Virus record (IMG/VR): IMGVR_UViG_3300009537_002866
Location: 1 to 26,856 of that record
Strand: one strand, 5' to 3'
DNA from: a virus
DNA length: 26,856 bases
The first letter of the stretch is position 1. Each line of letters opens with the position of its first letter. The notes below the pieces were generated by a model. The model saw nothing but the letters and a program-made list of their open reading frames with translations. It did not search any database and was not told the origin of the DNA. Positions 3,464 to 22,853 of the stretch are shown piece after piece. Made by a program: the position numbers and the translations under genes.

Positions 3464-3859
3464 TTACCCGCGCTTGAGCGCTTGCCCGGTGATGTACTCA
3501 TAAGCAACCCGTGCCTGATTGACAACCTTAGAGTCAGGATGATTGAATAAGCCCTCAATAATACTGACCGCACTGGTGTCTTTTAATTCAGCCAGCGCCC
3601 GCAACGCCATAATTCTCAAGTCAAGATTGGACTCGTTTTGAATGATCGTTCTCAATTGCGGCTCAATGCCGGGCAGCTCAGTGACTTTGGCCGCCAGCAA
3701 TATCAGCCAGCGGGTATCATCATCGCCTGTTGTGTATAGCGCTTGTATATTGGCCAGCGTTAAATCGCCATCGGTTTTGACCATTACCCATGAGAGTACC
3801 ACTTCATCTCGCACACTGGCCGACTCCTCGATAATTTTACGCATCAACCTGGCTGTCAT
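3464..3859 (-). CDS. HEAT-repeat-like small helical protein
   Basis: This 131-residue all-helical protein has HEAT-type helix pairs in its second half. One is an NLDLRIMALRALAEL helix followed by a D-T-S-A turn and an IIEGLF helix. The next is HPDSKVVNQARVAYEYI, giving the usual Asp/Pro turn and Arg/Ala helix pattern. It starts in an ATGA overlap (3856-3859) with the Tal-like gene, so it belongs to the tail transcript. HEAT repeats act as protein-binding scaffolds, so a baseplate assembly chaperone or a small structural adaptor is plausible. It could equally be an accessory gene at the tail/lysis junction. Confidence 0.7.
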   Translation of the reverse strand: MTARLMRKIIEESASVRDEVVLSWVMVKTDGDLTLANIQALYTTGDDDTRWLILLAAKVTELPGIEPQLRTIIQNESNLDLRIMALRALAELKDTSAVSIIEGLFNHPDSKVVNQARVAYEYITGQALKRG

Positions 3860-15433: not shown

Positions 15434-17566
15434 CTACACGCCAACATTGTAACTGGCGGCGCTGGCATCAGTGCTGAATTTCTGGAAACCGAGTCGCATG
15501 GACGCCACTACCGTCCAAGCCCCAGACTCAATGTTTTTCTGGGTCTCAATGGTGACGCGCCGTTTCCAGCCCAAAGTCCAGTAACGTGGCACAACACACA
15601 GGACGCGCCCGGTAGTGCCGCCCGCCGCAGGAATTAGCCCGTCAGCCGCCCGACCTAATGCCATCTGGCCCGACACATGATAAGGCACGCGCCAGATAAA
15701 TGGGATTTCACCATTGATGATAGTCGCCAGCCCTACATCCGATGTTTTCACCGCCGGGATTTGGAGCGCCTTCATCTCAGTCTGGACATCGGACACAAAC
15801 AACAGTTGCCCGCGATTGTTTTGCAGATTAGTCGCCAGCAAGCCAATCGTGCTTAAGAAGTCGGTGTCAGTCAATGACCCAGCCGCACTGCGATTCTTGC
15901 CCGATGTCAACAGCGCATTTTTCAACGCGCCATCGCTCACTAGATAAACCGGCTGGCTGGTAGTCGTGCCCGGCGTGCCGTCAATCAGGTTGATATTGGT
16001 GTTGACAGTGATAACGGTATCCCCGTTGAGATAGACATACTCAACCATGTCCGCCGCGCTCAATTCGAGCGATTGACGAGTATGGGGCAATATCGGCACA
16101 ATCGAATCCTCAACCAGGTTCTCATTGAGGATAATTTTGCTTTTGGCCGTGCCCGGTGTCAGAGTCGCATTGCCCGTACCAGCAACCGATGGGATATTGT
16201 CAATGGTTGGTCGCCCTACTGCGTCAACATCATGACTCACCTGGGCTTTATACCAGGTCGGGTCAGCGCCTTCAGTGGGCACAACGACTGACTCGTGGCC
16301 TTGCGGCACTTCCATTACCAGCATACCGCCAGCAATGAGCCGCTCCATGATGTTCGCATGACGAACCTTACCCCAGAGCATGGATGAATAGAAAACCCCA
16401 ACCCATTCATCGCCCTGTCCGGCCACCGTTGAGCCCATCAATTCATCTGCACGGGTTTCGCCACTGCCAAGCGGCAAGCGCGACCTGACAGCATTACGGT
16501 CAACACGCGTATCGAGTCCATCATTGCCGGAATCAATCGCGTCAACGGCCTTGTGAGCCATTGCCCGAATATAGTCCTCAGAAACACTTGGTTTGGGCAT
16601 GGATTGGAGAATCTCATAACCAAACAGCATATCTTCATGCGACAAATGCGCATAGCGCAAATCATTCACGCCACTGATCTGCGGACTTCTTGGAGCGGGG
16701 CGAGGTTCAGGAGTCAGTTCAGGCGGCGCGCCTTGCAACGCCACAAAGTCAGCACGCAATTGGTCAAATTCGGCACGCAAGGCCGAGTCATCAACCACTG
16801 GCGACGCAGGAGTAGGGATTGGTTCAGGCTGGGGCACGACTGGAGTCATGCGCGCAGCGATTAAATCAGCCAGTGCATCAAGATCGATGGCTGGCGGTGT
16901 CTCTTGATCTTGGGGAGTAACGTCATTAGGCATTTCAGTTTCCTCATACTGACCATCACCGGCAATTAATAAATCACCAGCAATGGCGCGCTCAACAGAT
17001 ATATCAGACGCATCAGCGTCCTGTTGCAGGTTTTGTCTGTGGCTTTCGGGTGCATCCCGCCCCGACTGGTCAGCCGCCCGTGTCATGATAACTTTGGGCA
17101 TACGCGATTCACTCGCGTATTTTGTAAGTGAGATCTCGAAAAGAGTCCAATTTACGAAACGATTATCATCATCAAACTCAGCCGCGTAACCGCCTGTGCC
17201 CGATGATGTCGCCAGCTCTTTTTTTACAACCTCATTAGCTATACGATAAAAGAAAACTGAGCTACGGTCAAGGTGTCCTTTGAATCTGATGCCAATTTCA
17301 TCAAACCAAACCTCATCTACTGAGCCAACAATCGCCTTTTTAATCACACCGTCCCGTGTGTGTTCGTAATGCAACGGCCAGGGCGCAAAGTCCAGGCCCA
17401 TTTCAGGCGGTTTGGCCCGGTCAAACCATGTGCCGTAACTGTCCACATGGTCAGGATCACCCCAAATAGCCACATACCCCTCAATCACGCCCAAAGCATC
17501 ATCAAGGGACAGATCCCCTCTGACAATGTTTACAAAAGGAGATTCATTCGTCTGTGTAACTGTCAT
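15434..17566 (-). CDS. Prohead protease (S78-like) fused to HK97-fold major capsid protein
   Basis: The 710-residue polyprotein starts at ATG 17566, with GAGGAG 7-8 bases upstream; earlier in-frame starts lie further inside the portal gene. Residues 25-160 match the HK97 prohead protease layout: E-G-Y-V-A-I-W-G-D, then P-L-H-Y-E-H (H66 or H69 as the catalytic His), a G-I-R-F-K-G-H-L-D strand, T-S-S-G-T-G-G (candidate Ser 121/122) and F-E-I-S-L-T (E144). Residues 165-300 are a Pro/Glu-rich linker with a coiled-coil stretch near 258-278, consistent with a scaffolding/delta region. Residues 300-710 look like the capsid subunit, with an N-terminal region DLRYAHLSHEDM and a beta-rich C-terminus ending W-T-V-V-A-S-M-R-L-G-F. 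Self-cleavage between 160 and 300 would release mature capsid protein. Confidence 0.85.
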   Translation of the reverse strand: MTVTQTNESPFVNIVRGDLSLDDALGVIEGYVAIWGDPDHVDSYGTWFDRAKPPEMGLDFAPWPLHYEHTRDGVIKKAIVGSVDEVWFDEIGIRFKGHLDRSSVFFYRIANEVVKKELATSSGTGGYAAEFDDDNRFVNWTLFEISLTKYASESRMPKVIMTRAADQSGRDAPESHRQNLQQDADASDISVERAIAGDLLIAGDGQYEETEMPNDVTPQDQETPPAIDLDALADLIAARMTPVVPQPEPIPTPASPVVDDSALRAEFDQLRADFVALQGAPPELTPEPRPAPRSPQISGVNDLRYAHLSHEDMLFGYEILQSMPKPSVSEDYIRAMAHKAVDAIDSGNDGLDTRVDRNAVRSRLPLGSGETRADELMGSTVAGQGDEWVGVFYSSMLWGKVRHANIMERLIAGGMLVMEVPQGHESVVVPTEGADPTWYKAQVSHDVDAVGRPTIDNIPSVAGTGNATLTPGTAKSKIILNENLVEDSIVPILPHTRQSLELSAADMVEYVYLNGDTVITVNTNINLIDGTPGTTTSQPVYLVSDGALKNALLTSGKNRSAAGSLTDTDFLSTIGLLATNLQNNRGQLLFVSDVQTEMKALQIPAVKTSDVGLATIINGEIPFIWRVPYHVSGQMALGRAADGLIPAAGGTTGRVLCVVPRYWTLGWKRRVTIETQKNIESGAWTVVASMRLGFQKFSTDASAASYNVGV

Positions 17567-20500
17567 CGTCAGACTCCTCAACATGATAATGCATTTCATC
17601 GGCCACATCATGACGCGGGCCGATTATTTTTGGAAAGCGACCTCGCGTTATTGGCTCATCCGTGTTTTCAAGTTTGCACTTACAATGAATGCCGAAACAA
17701 TTCAAATCAGGCGATTGTGGCTCAATGCCCGACTCGCGCCATTTGCTGGCCCGATAAACCCTCCCGTTAAGTTTCTTGCAATCAGGGCAATGCTCCGTGT
17801 TCCCAACCCGCCATATTTTTTTCTTATCGCCAGCCGCCGCCAGTTGCCCTTTGGTGCGAATGCGATCATAACGAGCAATCCAGCCATCAGCCCGACTCAA
17901 CACGGATTTGAGCTTGCCGCCATCAGCTTTGGTCATGCCCTCAAGGTCAGTCGCCACCTTGAGTAAGTTACGAATTTCATTATTGATTTCAGTCGCCAAC
18001 TCAGCCAACTCAGCCGGGGTTAATTCATGTTCACTGACACCCTCTCGCCTTGCCCCCTCAACCCAAGCGTTGCGGTAGTTGCGTGAAATTGCCGATTGGC
18101 CCGCATCAATAAACTGAAACATATCAAACTCATTCGCCCAAAAACCCCGGAAAAGATTTCTGATAGCGCGCTTATAGGTCGCTTTCGTTCTGATCTCATC
18201 CCCCCCATCAAACGTGCTGATCGCTTGCAACATGGGCAAAATTGACTCGGTGGCAATCGGCTTGCCGTCCTCGAATGCGACCAATTCAACCTCACCACGC
18301 AACATGCTATCCGCATAGCCAAATACCGACTCAATGGGGGCCTCAGTGGACAATGCCCATATGATGAAATCAGCCACCGCTGACCCTGCCAACACATCAG
18401 GCTTAAATGCATCATTCCCTTTACGCTCAGTGACTAACCGCCAATTGCGCAATTCCTTTACGGCTTCACTGCTTACCCCACGCAATGGCCAGGTCGTTTG
18501 TGATTTTTTGCCAATAGCCAGGCTTACATTCGTCAACACCAACGGATATTTTTGTGATGTGTCGGCATTTAAATCTTCATCGCTGATAGGTGGATTAGCA
18601 CGGCATAACAACACGCCGAACGGGGGCACGCCATCACCTTTGATGTTATAGCCCTCAGCCTCAAGCCGGATGGATTCGGCGAAACGTCGGGTCAAATCAG
18701 ACTCGGTAATTTTAAGATACACCGACTCCCCCTGGATGACGTAGCCATCTGTCCAAGCATTAATTTTGCTGGCTTTACTGATGTCCAGATTGCGCATCAG
18801 TTGCGCCACATCGCCCGGGTGCCAGTCCTCAATACGCAAGAAATCAATACGCCATTCCGAATCACCAAGCCAGACCACATCAGGCCGATCAGACAACAAC
18901 CGGGATAAGTTGCGCCGTGCGTAGCGCACAAATTGGTTATTAGCCAAATCAACCCCTAATGACAATGGCATACCCGCCCGCTTGGCACTCATCTCTGATG
19001 GCTGTTCGGTAAATGCACCATCCTCAAGGTCAAGCTGCGGCTCATCCTGACCACCAAGCCACAGACCGCCAATCTCATAATGGTCAGGACGGCTGATTGC
19101 TAATCCTTGCCCCTTAACCGTCACTGGCTGATTAAACTCAGGCACACTTGCCCCCTTTTGTGCGTAGGCCAAGGTCACATGCGGTCGCCAATTGTCAGGG
19201 TCACTTGTGTCAGATACCGTTGCTCCGGCTTGAACACACAAGTCATGAATCGAGCGCTGGAAATCGCGCAAACGCTGGTCGGCCTCGACATCTAATTTGA
19301 TAACCAGTGTCTCATTATCAAAAACGCTCAATGCTCCGATTTGAAGGGCGAAAGGCTCAATCATAGCCGGCAACATCGCCATGACCGCCCGGGCCTGTTC
19401 TGTGTCCATGATGGGGCAGTGGGTAAGGGTAAGGTGTAAATCATGCGGGTCAACCCATCGCACTACCTTAACCTCATCCACCATCAGGTTTCTGACCAAA
19501 CTTTGAATAGCCATAAGTAGCGGCTCATAGCTTAAGTCAAACAGGATATAAGCGCTGGCCTCACCAGTGCTGTTGGCGCGCAGGTCAAACCGCACCGGCA
19601 ACTCTTGAACGGATATTGCCTCATCCTCATCACCCTCTCCAGCCGGGACAACGAGCGGGTTTTCAACCACTGGTGCAAGGGCGGGTTGCTCACTGACAAT
19701 AATGGTCTCATCCTCAGATTTAGGCTCAGGTTTAGGCGGATCAACATAGTCGCCTAATTTGGAAAGTGGCACATAATCAGCGCCCAACTTGAGGAAATCC
19801 CCCGCGTCAATCTTGTCAAAACCAATCATGAGCCGCGCTTGATTCAAGGTGGCTAATCCGTCATTCCACAGGTTGCGCGGTTGGGTTGAATTGCGGGCCG
19901 GCCATAACACATCATCCCCACGCGGCAATAATCCCATTAACTCACGCGATTCATCAGTGTCATACACCCCTGACTCGCTCAGGCTGTTGGCGGTATCGGC
20001 TTTATCTTTATTGACATCGGATAATAAATCAATCGCCGCTCGATTGACCGCCAGCGTGTAATGGCCATTTGGCACAAAATCAACCGATGCCCATTGGTCG
20101 GTTAACGCCCTGAGTATGCGCTTGGCGCTGGGGATAATCACCCGATCAACCGCTTGCCGCTGCTCGCTTTCAAGTGTGGATTGCGCGCTCAAAGCATCAG
20201 GCGCATTGCCAAGCCCCACCAGTACCGGATGAATGCGAAAAGCTGCGCAAATTCGCTGTGTGGTCTGGTCGTTTAATTCAGCCAATGCCAGATCGCCCAT
20301 CGACATTTGAATGGGAGTCCACTTTGCGCCGGGCGGCATGACTGCCGTGCGATGAGCGTTGCTTGAGCCTTTAAATGCCTTGCGCCACGTCTCACGAGCA
20401 TCTTGCAATTGTGCATCACTGGTTTCTTCAGTAAATGACAACATGCCATCAGGTCGAGCTGAATTAAAGAAAAAAGTAGCCGCATACTTAGCGATATTTA

Positions 20501-21113
20501 AATCAATATTGGCCTCACTGAAAGCGACCTCAAGCGGGGATAGCGGATCACCTAATCCACTCACATCAAACAGTGAAAAATACACCACCTCATCTAACCC
20601 AACTCGCCTATGTTGCGGGGTCATTAGCCAGTAACCTGTGATGTGGCCCATATGGTCGATCACATTTTCCACATGGTTGTTGTTGCGCCATTTTAATCCA
20701 GACGGAAATCCGGCCGCATTTGGCATTTTTTCGGCATAGGCTTGCCCCCAAATCAGTTGGGCACGCTCAACATCCTCAAGCAGTTGCGGCGCTGTCCTGA
20801 GAAAATGTCCGAAAGGATGTGGCTCAATCGCCTCTCCATTTTCATCCACAACCCGGATGGCCACTTCAGTGATAAGTTGGGCGCGATACTGGATGCAGGC
20901 ATACGCCGGAATCACGACTTTGAACACATCGTTCAACGAGGTGTCGCTTACCCCAGTGGCCCCAGCGATGAGTTGTCGCCATTCCGTTTCCAGAATCGAG
21001 CGATACTCATCGCGCGAATGCCAGTCGTCACCCTTGATATACACCTCGCGGGTCGCTAATTGTACAGGGCTGACGGTCTCAACCGGTGGCAACATCAGGT
21101 CAAATAAGCTCAT
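17544..21113 (-). CDS. Portal - 2H phosphoesterase - MuF-like minor head polyprotein
   Basis: The 1189-residue protein starts 4 bases after the terminase stop (TGAGACCATG). Residues 1-430 are an HK97-type portal (VIPAYACIQYRAQLI, GDPLSPLEVA, AAFRIHPVLVG, then QSTLESEQR). After an acidic linker (455-505), residues 519-690 are a canonical 2H phosphoesterase with H560-L-T562 and H645-V-T647. Residues 715-880 repeat the 2H layout, but the motif positions read R755-I-D757 and F832-G-V834, so they look inactive. The C-terminus (about 885-1150) is MuF-like, with a helical region and the cysteine cluster C1109-x2-C1112, C1139, C1144-x-C1146. 2H enzymes cleave or form 2',3'- or 2',5'-linked nucleotide bonds, and some phage members (the Acb1 type) destroy CBASS cyclic nucleotides. 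The domain calls are motif-based, and the substrate is unknown. Confidence 0.85.
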   Translation of the reverse strand: MSLFDLMLPPVETVSPVQLATREVYIKGDDWHSRDEYRSILETEWRQLIAGATGVSDTSLNDVFKVVIPAYACIQYRAQLITEVAIRVVDENGEAIEPHPFGHFLRTAPQLLEDVERAQLIWGQAYAEKMPNAAGFPSGLKWRNNNHVENVIDHMGHITGYWLMTPQHRRVGLDEVVYFSLFDVSGLGDPLSPLEVAFSEANIDLNIAKYAATFFFNSARPDGMLSFTEETSDAQLQDARETWRKAFKGSSNAHRTAVMPPGAKWTPIQMSMGDLALAELNDQTTQRICAAFRIHPVLVGLGNAPDALSAQSTLESEQRQAVDRVIIPSAKRILRALTDQWASVDFVPNGHYTLAVNRAAIDLLSDVNKDKADTANSLSESGVYDTDESRELMGLLPRGDDVLWPARNSTQPRNLWNDGLATLNQARLMIGFDKIDAGDFLKLGADYVPLSKLGDYVDPPKPEPKSEDETIIVSEQPALAPVVENPLVVPAGEGDEDEAISVQELPVRFDLRANSTGEASAYILFDLSYEPLLMAIQSLVRNLMVDEVKVVRWVDPHDLHLTLTHCPIMDTEQARAVMAMLPAMIEPFALQIGALSVFDNETLVIKLDVEADQRLRDFQRSIHDLCVQAGATVSDTSDPDNWRPHVTLAYAQKGASVPEFNQPVTVKGQGLAISRPDHYEIGGLWLGGQDEPQLDLEDGAFTEQPSEMSAKRAGMPLSLGVDLANNQFVRYARRNLSRLLSDRPDVVWLGDSEWRIDFLRIEDWHPGDVAQLMRNLDISKASKINAWTDGYVIQGESVYLKITESDLTRRFAESIRLEAEGYNIKGDGVPPFGVLLCRANPPISDEDLNADTSQKYPLVLTNVSLAIGKKSQTTWPLRGVSSEAVKELRNWRLVTERKGNDAFKPDVLAGSAVADFIIWALSTEAPIESVFGYADSMLRGEVELVAFEDGKPIATESILPMLQAISTFDGGDEIRTKATYKRAIRNLFRGFWANEFDMFQFIDAGQSAISRNYRNAWVEGARREGVSEHELTPAELAELATEINNEIRNLLKVATDLEGMTKADGGKLKSVLSRADGWIARYDRIRTKGQLAAAGDKKKIWRVGNTEHCPDCKKLNGRVYRASKWRESGIEPQSPDLNCFGIHCKCKLENTDEPITRGRFPKIIGPRHDVADEMHYHVEESDDDSYTDE

Positions 21114-21117
21114 GGTC

Positions 21118-22563
21118 TCACCATACCTCAGATTTGTAACCGCCTGGCTTGTCCACTTCCATTACCAAATAGCGCATGGCATCCATACCGTGATTGAAAG
21201 CATCGAGCGGCAACTCTTTGTCGTTACGCCCGTCCCGACCCTCAGCCCATATATAAGCCGGAAATTCCTCGGCCGTATTAATCGGCTTTTCCTTTTCACG
21301 CAATTCAGAGTCAAGCTCTACCAGTGAATCGCGCATATAATACAGGCGCGGCTTGCCATCGCCCGCAATTAACAACCTGTTTTGTACCGCCTCAATCCCT
21401 GTTCTGATGTCTTTCCTGGCGGCGGTCGTGTCTACGCCCATCTCGCGCATAGTGGCCCTGTCTTCAGCGTCATGGTCAGCCACCCGGATTTGGCAACGGC
21501 GATATTCAGACGACTCGCGCCATGCTGCCCGTTTATCATCGTCGCTCAACCCTGCCCATCGCGCCACGTTGTAACCCGTTTCAAGCCGTTGTATCTGGTC
21601 AGTATGGGCGCGTACCGTGCGCCGTGTCATATAAATTTCACGGTATAAAATCAAGCGCCCATCCGGGTCTTGAGCCCACCATTGCGCCACAAAGGGATTG
21701 GTATAGCCGTAATCATAAGCACAAAACACCGGCCACACTTCGGGGATGTCAAAACGATCAATGACATGTACCGACTCGTCAAAGTCATCATAGACCGCGC
21801 CCTCAGACTGTACCCACAAGCCATACCGCTTGCGTTGTTTACGGACACCCGTCAAATTATCTAGCACAGCCAGGTATTGCAACCCCCGCGGTGTCCATGT
21901 CCCGGCATCATGATTATACAACACCGGGTTATCCTCGTGTTTTCCATACAACATTCTCAATGTGCCACTATCAGCCCGGCGTTTCAACCAGTGCGATGGC
22001 GGCCCAGGGTTGGTGTCACTAACCATCTGCTGATAAGGCATGGCGTTATTTCTAAGTCGTGTGGTCAAATCTTCATAGCCTAAGATTTTCGCCTCGATCG
22101 CCTCTTGAAAGAAAATCATATCATATTCGCCGGACAGGATTCGATTCGAGTTATCCATGCCGCCCGGTATAATTGTGCTTCCGTTTGGGTAACGATAGGC
22201 TTGTCGATTGGAACGCTCAGGTTTATTGCTGCGCTTGGGATTAAGGATAGGGTGTTGCCGACCTAAGACGAAATCCTCAAATGTCTGCAAGCCGGTCTCG
22301 TTCAAACTCACACGAGTCTGGCGTACAATCAAGCCGCGAAAACCGGGATATTTTTCAGCCAGGTAATGCATCTTTTCTAACCATGCACGCGATTTGCCCG
22401 TTCCAGCCGGGCCGCTGATAATCACCTCAGGCTCTGTCGACTCCCATGCCACCAAATTGGAACCATAGGGGGTATAGGACGGCTTGATAGTTGCCCGAAA
22501 GTCAGGCGACACCAAGCCATCGGTGATGGCATCCGCAAACTGCGCAGCAAGCGACAAGGCCAT
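21118..22563 (-). CDS. terL: Terminase large subunit
   Basis: The 481-residue packaging motor starts in a one-base overlap with the previous stop (TAATG at 22561-22565). The ATPase half shows Walker A, G-P-A-G-T-G-K-S (51-58), an R-Q-T-R-V-S-L segment after it, and Walker B, Y-D-M-I-F-F-Q-E (147-154, with E154 catalytic). The nuclease half has the RNase H-like acidic set: A-Y-D-Y-G-Y (D284), V-A-D-H-D-A-E-D (D363/D365) and H-G-M-D-A-M-R-Y (D461). The length is normal for the family, and all key residues are present. A small terminase is not recognised beside it, so that partner must lie outside the window or be highly diverged. Fibre genes occupy the usual upstream place. Confidence 0.95.
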   Translation of the reverse strand: MALSLAAQFADAITDGLVSPDFRATIKPSYTPYGSNLVAWESTEPEVIISGPAGTGKSRAWLEKMHYLAEKYPGFRGLIVRQTRVSLNETGLQTFEDFVLGRQHPILNPKRSNKPERSNRQAYRYPNGSTIIPGGMDNSNRILSGEYDMIFFQEAIEAKILGYEDLTTRLRNNAMPYQQMVSDTNPGPPSHWLKRRADSGTLRMLYGKHEDNPVLYNHDAGTWTPRGLQYLAVLDNLTGVRKQRKRYGLWVQSEGAVYDDFDESVHVIDRFDIPEVWPVFCAYDYGYTNPFVAQWWAQDPDGRLILYREIYMTRRTVRAHTDQIQRLETGYNVARWAGLSDDDKRAAWRESSEYRRCQIRVADHDAEDRATMREMGVDTTAARKDIRTGIEAVQNRLLIAGDGKPRLYYMRDSLVELDSELREKEKPINTAEEFPAYIWAEGRDGRNDKELPLDAFNHGMDAMRYLVMEVDKPGGYKSEVW

Positions 22564-22853
22564 TAGTTATCTATGACCTCACATTCAAACTCGAATACCA
22601 ACTCCTGCCCATCACTCAGAGTCACTTTGTTTTCAATGCCATAGGTGTTGCCAGACGTGCCACCAGCGAACAAAGGAGTCGTCTTGCGCGTGGTGTCTGA
22701 TTGTGAGTCCAACGTCAACGGGGCAGCATCACCAGCAATTGCCTCAATGGTGAAATCGCTTGAGGTTATAGTCGCCGTGCCAATGTCTTTTGTCCAATTG
22801 ATAGGCTGTGCTCGGATTTCATCTACATGTTTTGTCATCTTGAATAATGCCAT
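22563..22853 (-). CDS. Putative fibre-tail adaptor-like small protein
   Basis: The 96-residue beta-rich protein has the pattern I associate with small phage fibre-tail adaptors: a W-T-K-D-I-G start, an I-T-S-S-D-F strand, then T-T-P-L-F-A-G-G-T-S-G-N-T-Y-G-I-E-N-K-V and a final V-F-E-F-E strand. It overlaps the upstream gene by one base and the terminase by one base. Its place downstream of the fibre genes supports a role joining fibres to the tail or head-proximal structure. The call is tentative. Confidence 0.55.
   Translation of the reverse strand: MALFKMTKHVDEIRAQPINWTKDIGTATITSSDFTIEAIAGDAAPLTLDSQSDTTRKTTPLFAGGTSGNTYGIENKVTLSDGQELVFEFECEVIDN

Follow-up and report, generated by a model that had tools for sequence, protein, structure and literature searches.

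The portal ORF and its 2H domain

The locus raises two questions, namely why a phage portal gene should carry the paired HxT motifs of a 2H phosphoesterase, and what such an enzyme would act upon. The window, by which we mean the whole stretch of DNA analysed here, is a 26,856-base IMG/VR virus record with its late genes on the minus strand, in the order terminase (21118-22563), portal ORF (17544-21113) and a 725-aa head gene (15434-17611), with the tape measure farther on. The terminase large subunit matches PF04466 (E=1.3e-7) and phrog_2 (E=1.9e-28), and directly before its gene, in reading direction, stands a Gp77-like fiber-tail adaptor (22563-22853; PF23148, E=2e-12). The sole match of the 725-aa head gene is to phrog_1623, a virion structural protein (E=2.6e-5), at its C-terminus; by eye, its N-terminus is protease-like and its C-terminus capsid-like, giving it the look of a prohead protease-scaffold-capsid fusion. 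A small HEAT-repeat protein (3464-3859; PF13646, E=2.9e-7) also lies within the late genes.

The portal ORF encodes 1189 aa, open throughout, in the order portal, linker, 2H, extra domain and MuF-like C-terminus, all on the minus strand. The HK97-type portal domain (residues 70-394; 19932-20906) is recognised by PF04860 (E=7.1e-44) and phrog_12 (E=5.3e-47). A Pro/Glu-rich linker (residues ~415-512; 19578-19871), which has Pro-rich counterparts at the equivalent position in homologues, joins it to the 2H domain (about residues 513-695; 19029-19577). There follow an extra domain of ~190 aa found in the window only (residues 697-888; 18450-19025) and a helical region with a MuF-like C-terminus bearing a CPDC...C.G..CKC motif (residues 884-1173; 17595-18464). 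The profile that defines this C-terminus is common to 2H-bearing portals and their 2H-less relatives, while Pfam Mu_F reaches only E=0.034, below its cut-off. Thus PF04860 and PF13563 occur within one ORF, with the MuF-like end assigned by family profile and not by Pfam. The original prediction spoke of a portal polyprotein; portal and 2H are indeed parts of one chain, but the wording is loose for what is a single multidomain ORF.

The catalytic motifs, H560-L-T562 (19428-19436, minus strand) and H645-V-T647 (19173-19181, minus strand), lie in the contexts VRWVDPHDLHLTL and WRPHVTLAY, with 85 residues between them. On the whole protein, PF13563 matches residues 554-658 at 47 bits (E=3.7e-12), well over its cut-off of 27, and on the 2H domain alone the match improves to E=2.8e-13. 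The model for RNA 2',3'-cyclic phosphodiesterase, TIGR02258, matches at E=1.6e-13 (50.9 bits for the whole protein, 55.7 for the domain), although both scores miss its ThpR/LigT equivalog cut-off of 65.7 bits. A profile of six homologues, when compared with solved structures, finds CPDase and LigT proteins, including PH0099 (7.4e-6) and drCPDase 5h7e (3.9e-5). Judged by such scores, the 2H match far exceeds chance.

An AF2 model of residues 513-695, built on a 6-sequence alignment (pLDDT 83.4, pTM 0.81), has a 2H fold in which both HxT motifs open beta-strands (model residues 48-57 and 133-139). By Foldseek this model matches drCPDase 5h7e (E=2.4e-8, TM 0.68) and also E. coli LigT, and because the model matches LigT, we infer that the two HxT pairs face one cleft. 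The placement of a 2H domain in the portal gene, with its coordinates, motifs and spacing, had been proposed from the letters alone; it is confirmed in the sequence, and the Pfam, TIGR02258 and fold results concur. Taken with both HxT motifs, PF13563 and the LigT-like fold support a genuine and apparently active domain.

Conservation in a family of portal-2H proteins

A search that started from the terminase led to one portal of like layout (L015), and alignment-based scans added L022, L024, L028, L029, L051, L053, L063, L065 and L068. This gives 11 contigs, the window included, in which a portal is followed by a 2H domain. The MuF-like part is seen after the 2H in 10 of these; contig ends truncate L022, L024 and L063, and L024 ends before the MuF part. 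Loss of the motifs in homologues would have spoken against an enzyme, and it is not seen, both HxT motifs being kept in 11/11 contigs at a spacing of 85-88 residues. This holds even though the 2H of the window is only 25-29% identical to that of other members. In an 8-member alignment of 189 columns, 20 are invariant, and all four catalytic positions (H/T/H/T) are among these. Values of dN/dS in the slot between portal and MuF-like part are 0.07-0.19 for the computable pairs of relatives, which exclude the window and in several of which dS is near saturation; by this measure, the 2H is under purifying selection between close relatives. With the catalytic residues both present and conserved, an active, metal-independent phosphodiesterase is supported, and we consider it very likely that the domain is an active 2H enzyme.

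A single-protein search of IMG/VR returned no close relatives of the whole portal, nor did either of two scans that covered 84,980 prokaryote genomes. The matches listed by tblastn against phages and plasmids are confined to the portal region, and residues 490-1189 have no tblastn match among phages.

A slot of exchangeable modules after the portal

That portals have no need of a 2H domain was part of the original prediction, and it is borne out by related phages whose portals lack the 2H or carry other modules in the same slot. For instance, L015 and L054 are 76% identical in the portal and 67% in the MuF part, and their slot inserts are unrelated. The module of L054 (501-990; beginning GVLSWIREREAWAARH...) recurs in hypothetical proteins of Salinibacter phages. 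Another slot module, that of L045 (3030-3525; beginning RGGTEVGIARARD..., phrog_2859), has ORFs of the same length in L046 and L049, and phrog_2859 also occurs within proteins whose annotation is capsid, portal, protease or minor head protein, from Vibrio, Roseobacter, cyano- and other phages.

Exchange is also visible among the 2H domains themselves. L029, L051 and L053 are 82-94% identical in the flanks and 65-71% in the 2H, and fourfold-silent divergence is higher in the 2H than in the flanks (P=0.002, 0.009 and 3e-5). In the reverse direction, L028 and L015 are 45% identical in the 2H as against 24% in the portal and 27% in the MuF part. The simplest reading of these differences between flank and 2H divergence is recombinational exchange of the 2H, which, on such comparisons, behaves as cargo rather than as part of the portal. 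A fixed structural task for the 2H is disfavoured because the slot exchanges it with unrelated modules. On balance, the insert is probably a catalytically competent, LigT/ThpR-like 2H phosphoesterase attached to the portal as a piece of exchangeable cargo.

The extra domain

For residues 697-888, which like the exchangeable slot went unmentioned in the original prediction, there is no Pfam match above cut-off, and no homologue of them was found. Their start, LSLGVDLANNQF, resembles the 2H start of relatives, LCVALDLANQPD. When aligned with the 2H profile by hhalign, the extra domain scores 25.3, against a maximum of 19.9 for 150 shuffles and 23.8 for 120 other segments, and the profile comparison gives P=0.0033. 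Direct BLASTP and HMM tests of tandem duplication give no or marginal support, a single-sequence AF2 model (pLDDT 34) is uninformative, and HxT motifs are absent. The resemblance is suggestive of a degenerate second 2H. If so, one might picture a tandem in which an active 2H is paired with a dead one that binds the substrate or host signal, making a virion-borne device for capturing and cutting nucleotide alarms in a slot for anti-defence modules, but we regard this picture as doubtful.

Substrate and role

From the order of scores, the 2H of the window lies nearer to LigT/ThpR than to Acb1, and the best-supported substrate class is LigT/ThpR-like, that is, 2',3'-cyclic or 2',5'-linked nucleotides. 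The HxT tetrad would act by acid-base catalysis, without metal, to cleave a 2',3'-cyclic or 2',5' (possibly 3',5'-cyclic) phosphodiester in a small nucleotide or an RNA end. The most likely role would be either destruction of a host nucleotide alarm or the healing or cleavage of RNA ends made by defence nucleases. For counter-defence of some kind we put the chances at about even; no defence gene, host or substrate could be linked to the portal-fused 2H, and the window is a partial contig of late genes.

Portal rings hold about 12 copies per particle, and in portals of known structure the C-terminus faces the capsid lumen. The 2H may accordingly ride in the virion as part of the portal ring, in ~12 copies, and would also be present late in the cytoplasm before assembly. 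Delivery with the DNA, as opposed to action solely in the producing cell, is rated the less probable course because a 2H tethered to the portal must be cut free to exit the particle. Since it otherwise stays behind, injection is no more likely than action in the producing cell.

Narrower readings can be weighed against this general one. RNA end healing, in which the domain would open the 2',3'-cyclic phosphates that cleavage by host anticodon or other RNases leaves behind, or would trim RNA, as LigT, ThpR and Usb1 do, is a tentative candidate. The top specific model is that of an RNA 2',3'-cyclic phosphodiesterase (TIGR02258), the top folds are CPDases and LigT, and an RNase role is among the options offered by Iyer et al. 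2017 (PMC5512222). However, the genes scanned in the window, itself partial, include no recognisable RNA ligase or kinase, and Iyer et al. report that these 2H versions were never seen with RNA ligases.

An Acb1-type anti-CBASS enzyme, which would cleave cyclic di- or trinucleotide signals at once on infection, is an identity to which the original prediction pointed by inference, and it now appears unlikely. Acb1 shares the superfamily and the HxT/HxT tetrad, and five of six members have a weak Pfam match to it. Yet the Acb1 model PF23474, with a cut-off of 27 bits, gives only 17.5 bits for the whole protein (E=0.0036) and 19.9 for the domain (E=0.00065), so that Acb1 as a specific identity is rejected at the Pfam cut-off. 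Moreover, the 50 PDB fold matches listed include no Acb1 entry, a BFVD fold search puts Acb1 proteins in 23rd and 45th place, and the ThpR/LigT model scores far above Acb1, leaving LigT/ThpR as the nearest class. A non-catalytic structural or nucleotide-binding domain, for which its location in a virion protein and the HxT-less extra domain of the window might speak, is improbable given the retention of both motifs in all 11 contigs despite a residue difference of ~70% between the window and the others, and given the swapping of unrelated modules into the slot.

Relation to known systems and significance

Portal-fused 2H domains are not a new idea. Iyer et al. 2017 (PMC5512222) report phage polyvalent proteins in which a 2H is fused to a MuF or a portal domain and propose, besides the RNase role, the degradation of defence nucleotides as counter-defence; a 2022 survey (PMC9503650) describes the fusions again and suggests that they are packaged and injected and that they counter nucleotide signalling. 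The packaging and counter-defence inference of the original prediction was thus in print in 2017 and again in 2022. As Iyer et al. had already published both, neither the idea nor its interpretation originates here, and the window shares with their fusions a 2H on a portal with a MuF-like part and the same proposed function. Compared with the text of that paper, the present case unites the portal, the 2H and the MuF-like part in a single chain and has an extra domain behind the 2H. A portal-2H-MuF family is also sampled here, and slot exchange is demonstrated.

With LigT/ThpR enzymes (TIGR02258, drCPDase 5h7e, E. coli LigT 5ldm), which give the best sequence and structure scores, the domain shares fold and HxT pairs; those enzymes are free-standing and cellular, whereas the window domain is portal-fused and under the equivalog cut-off. 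The Acb1 anti-CBASS nuclease (T4, FBB1) belongs to the same superfamily and has the same tetrad, but the 2H of the window is fused to a virion protein, falls below the Pfam Acb1 cut-off and has an HxT spacing of 85 against 69 in Acb1 (H44/H113). Acb1 additionally has aromatic stacking residues and a C-terminal lid (Y12, W74, F107, W147, E141; PMC9117128).

Other head proteins also carry 2H domains with two HxT motifs, among them gp11 of Streptomyces phage TP1604, a fusion of MuF and capsid maturation protease, and gp14 of Gordonia phage Tangent, a head maturation protease. Like the window, these have the 2H in a head protein, but theirs sits on MuF or a capsid maturation protease and belongs to a different 2H branch. 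The portal insert of L008, with HLT and HVC, falls in this actinophage branch by PHROGs, and hhalign does not recognise it as related to the portal-2H family. In L058 (4788-5507), a stand-alone Bixzunavirus 2H a few genes from the portal is annotated 'RNA ligase', a name that is probably misleading.

What is new here is the sampled portal-2H-MuF family and its module swapping, together with the suggestive case for a degenerate second 2H. In the open-access literature, no report was found in which a portal-fused 2H had been tested by experiment, and the culturable Streptomyces and Gordonia phages with a 2H in a head protein make the question testable. The slot between portal and MuF-like part offers a handle for locating further virion-carried modules, and the family described here is added to the published idea of nucleotide-cutting enzymes bolted onto phage head proteins.
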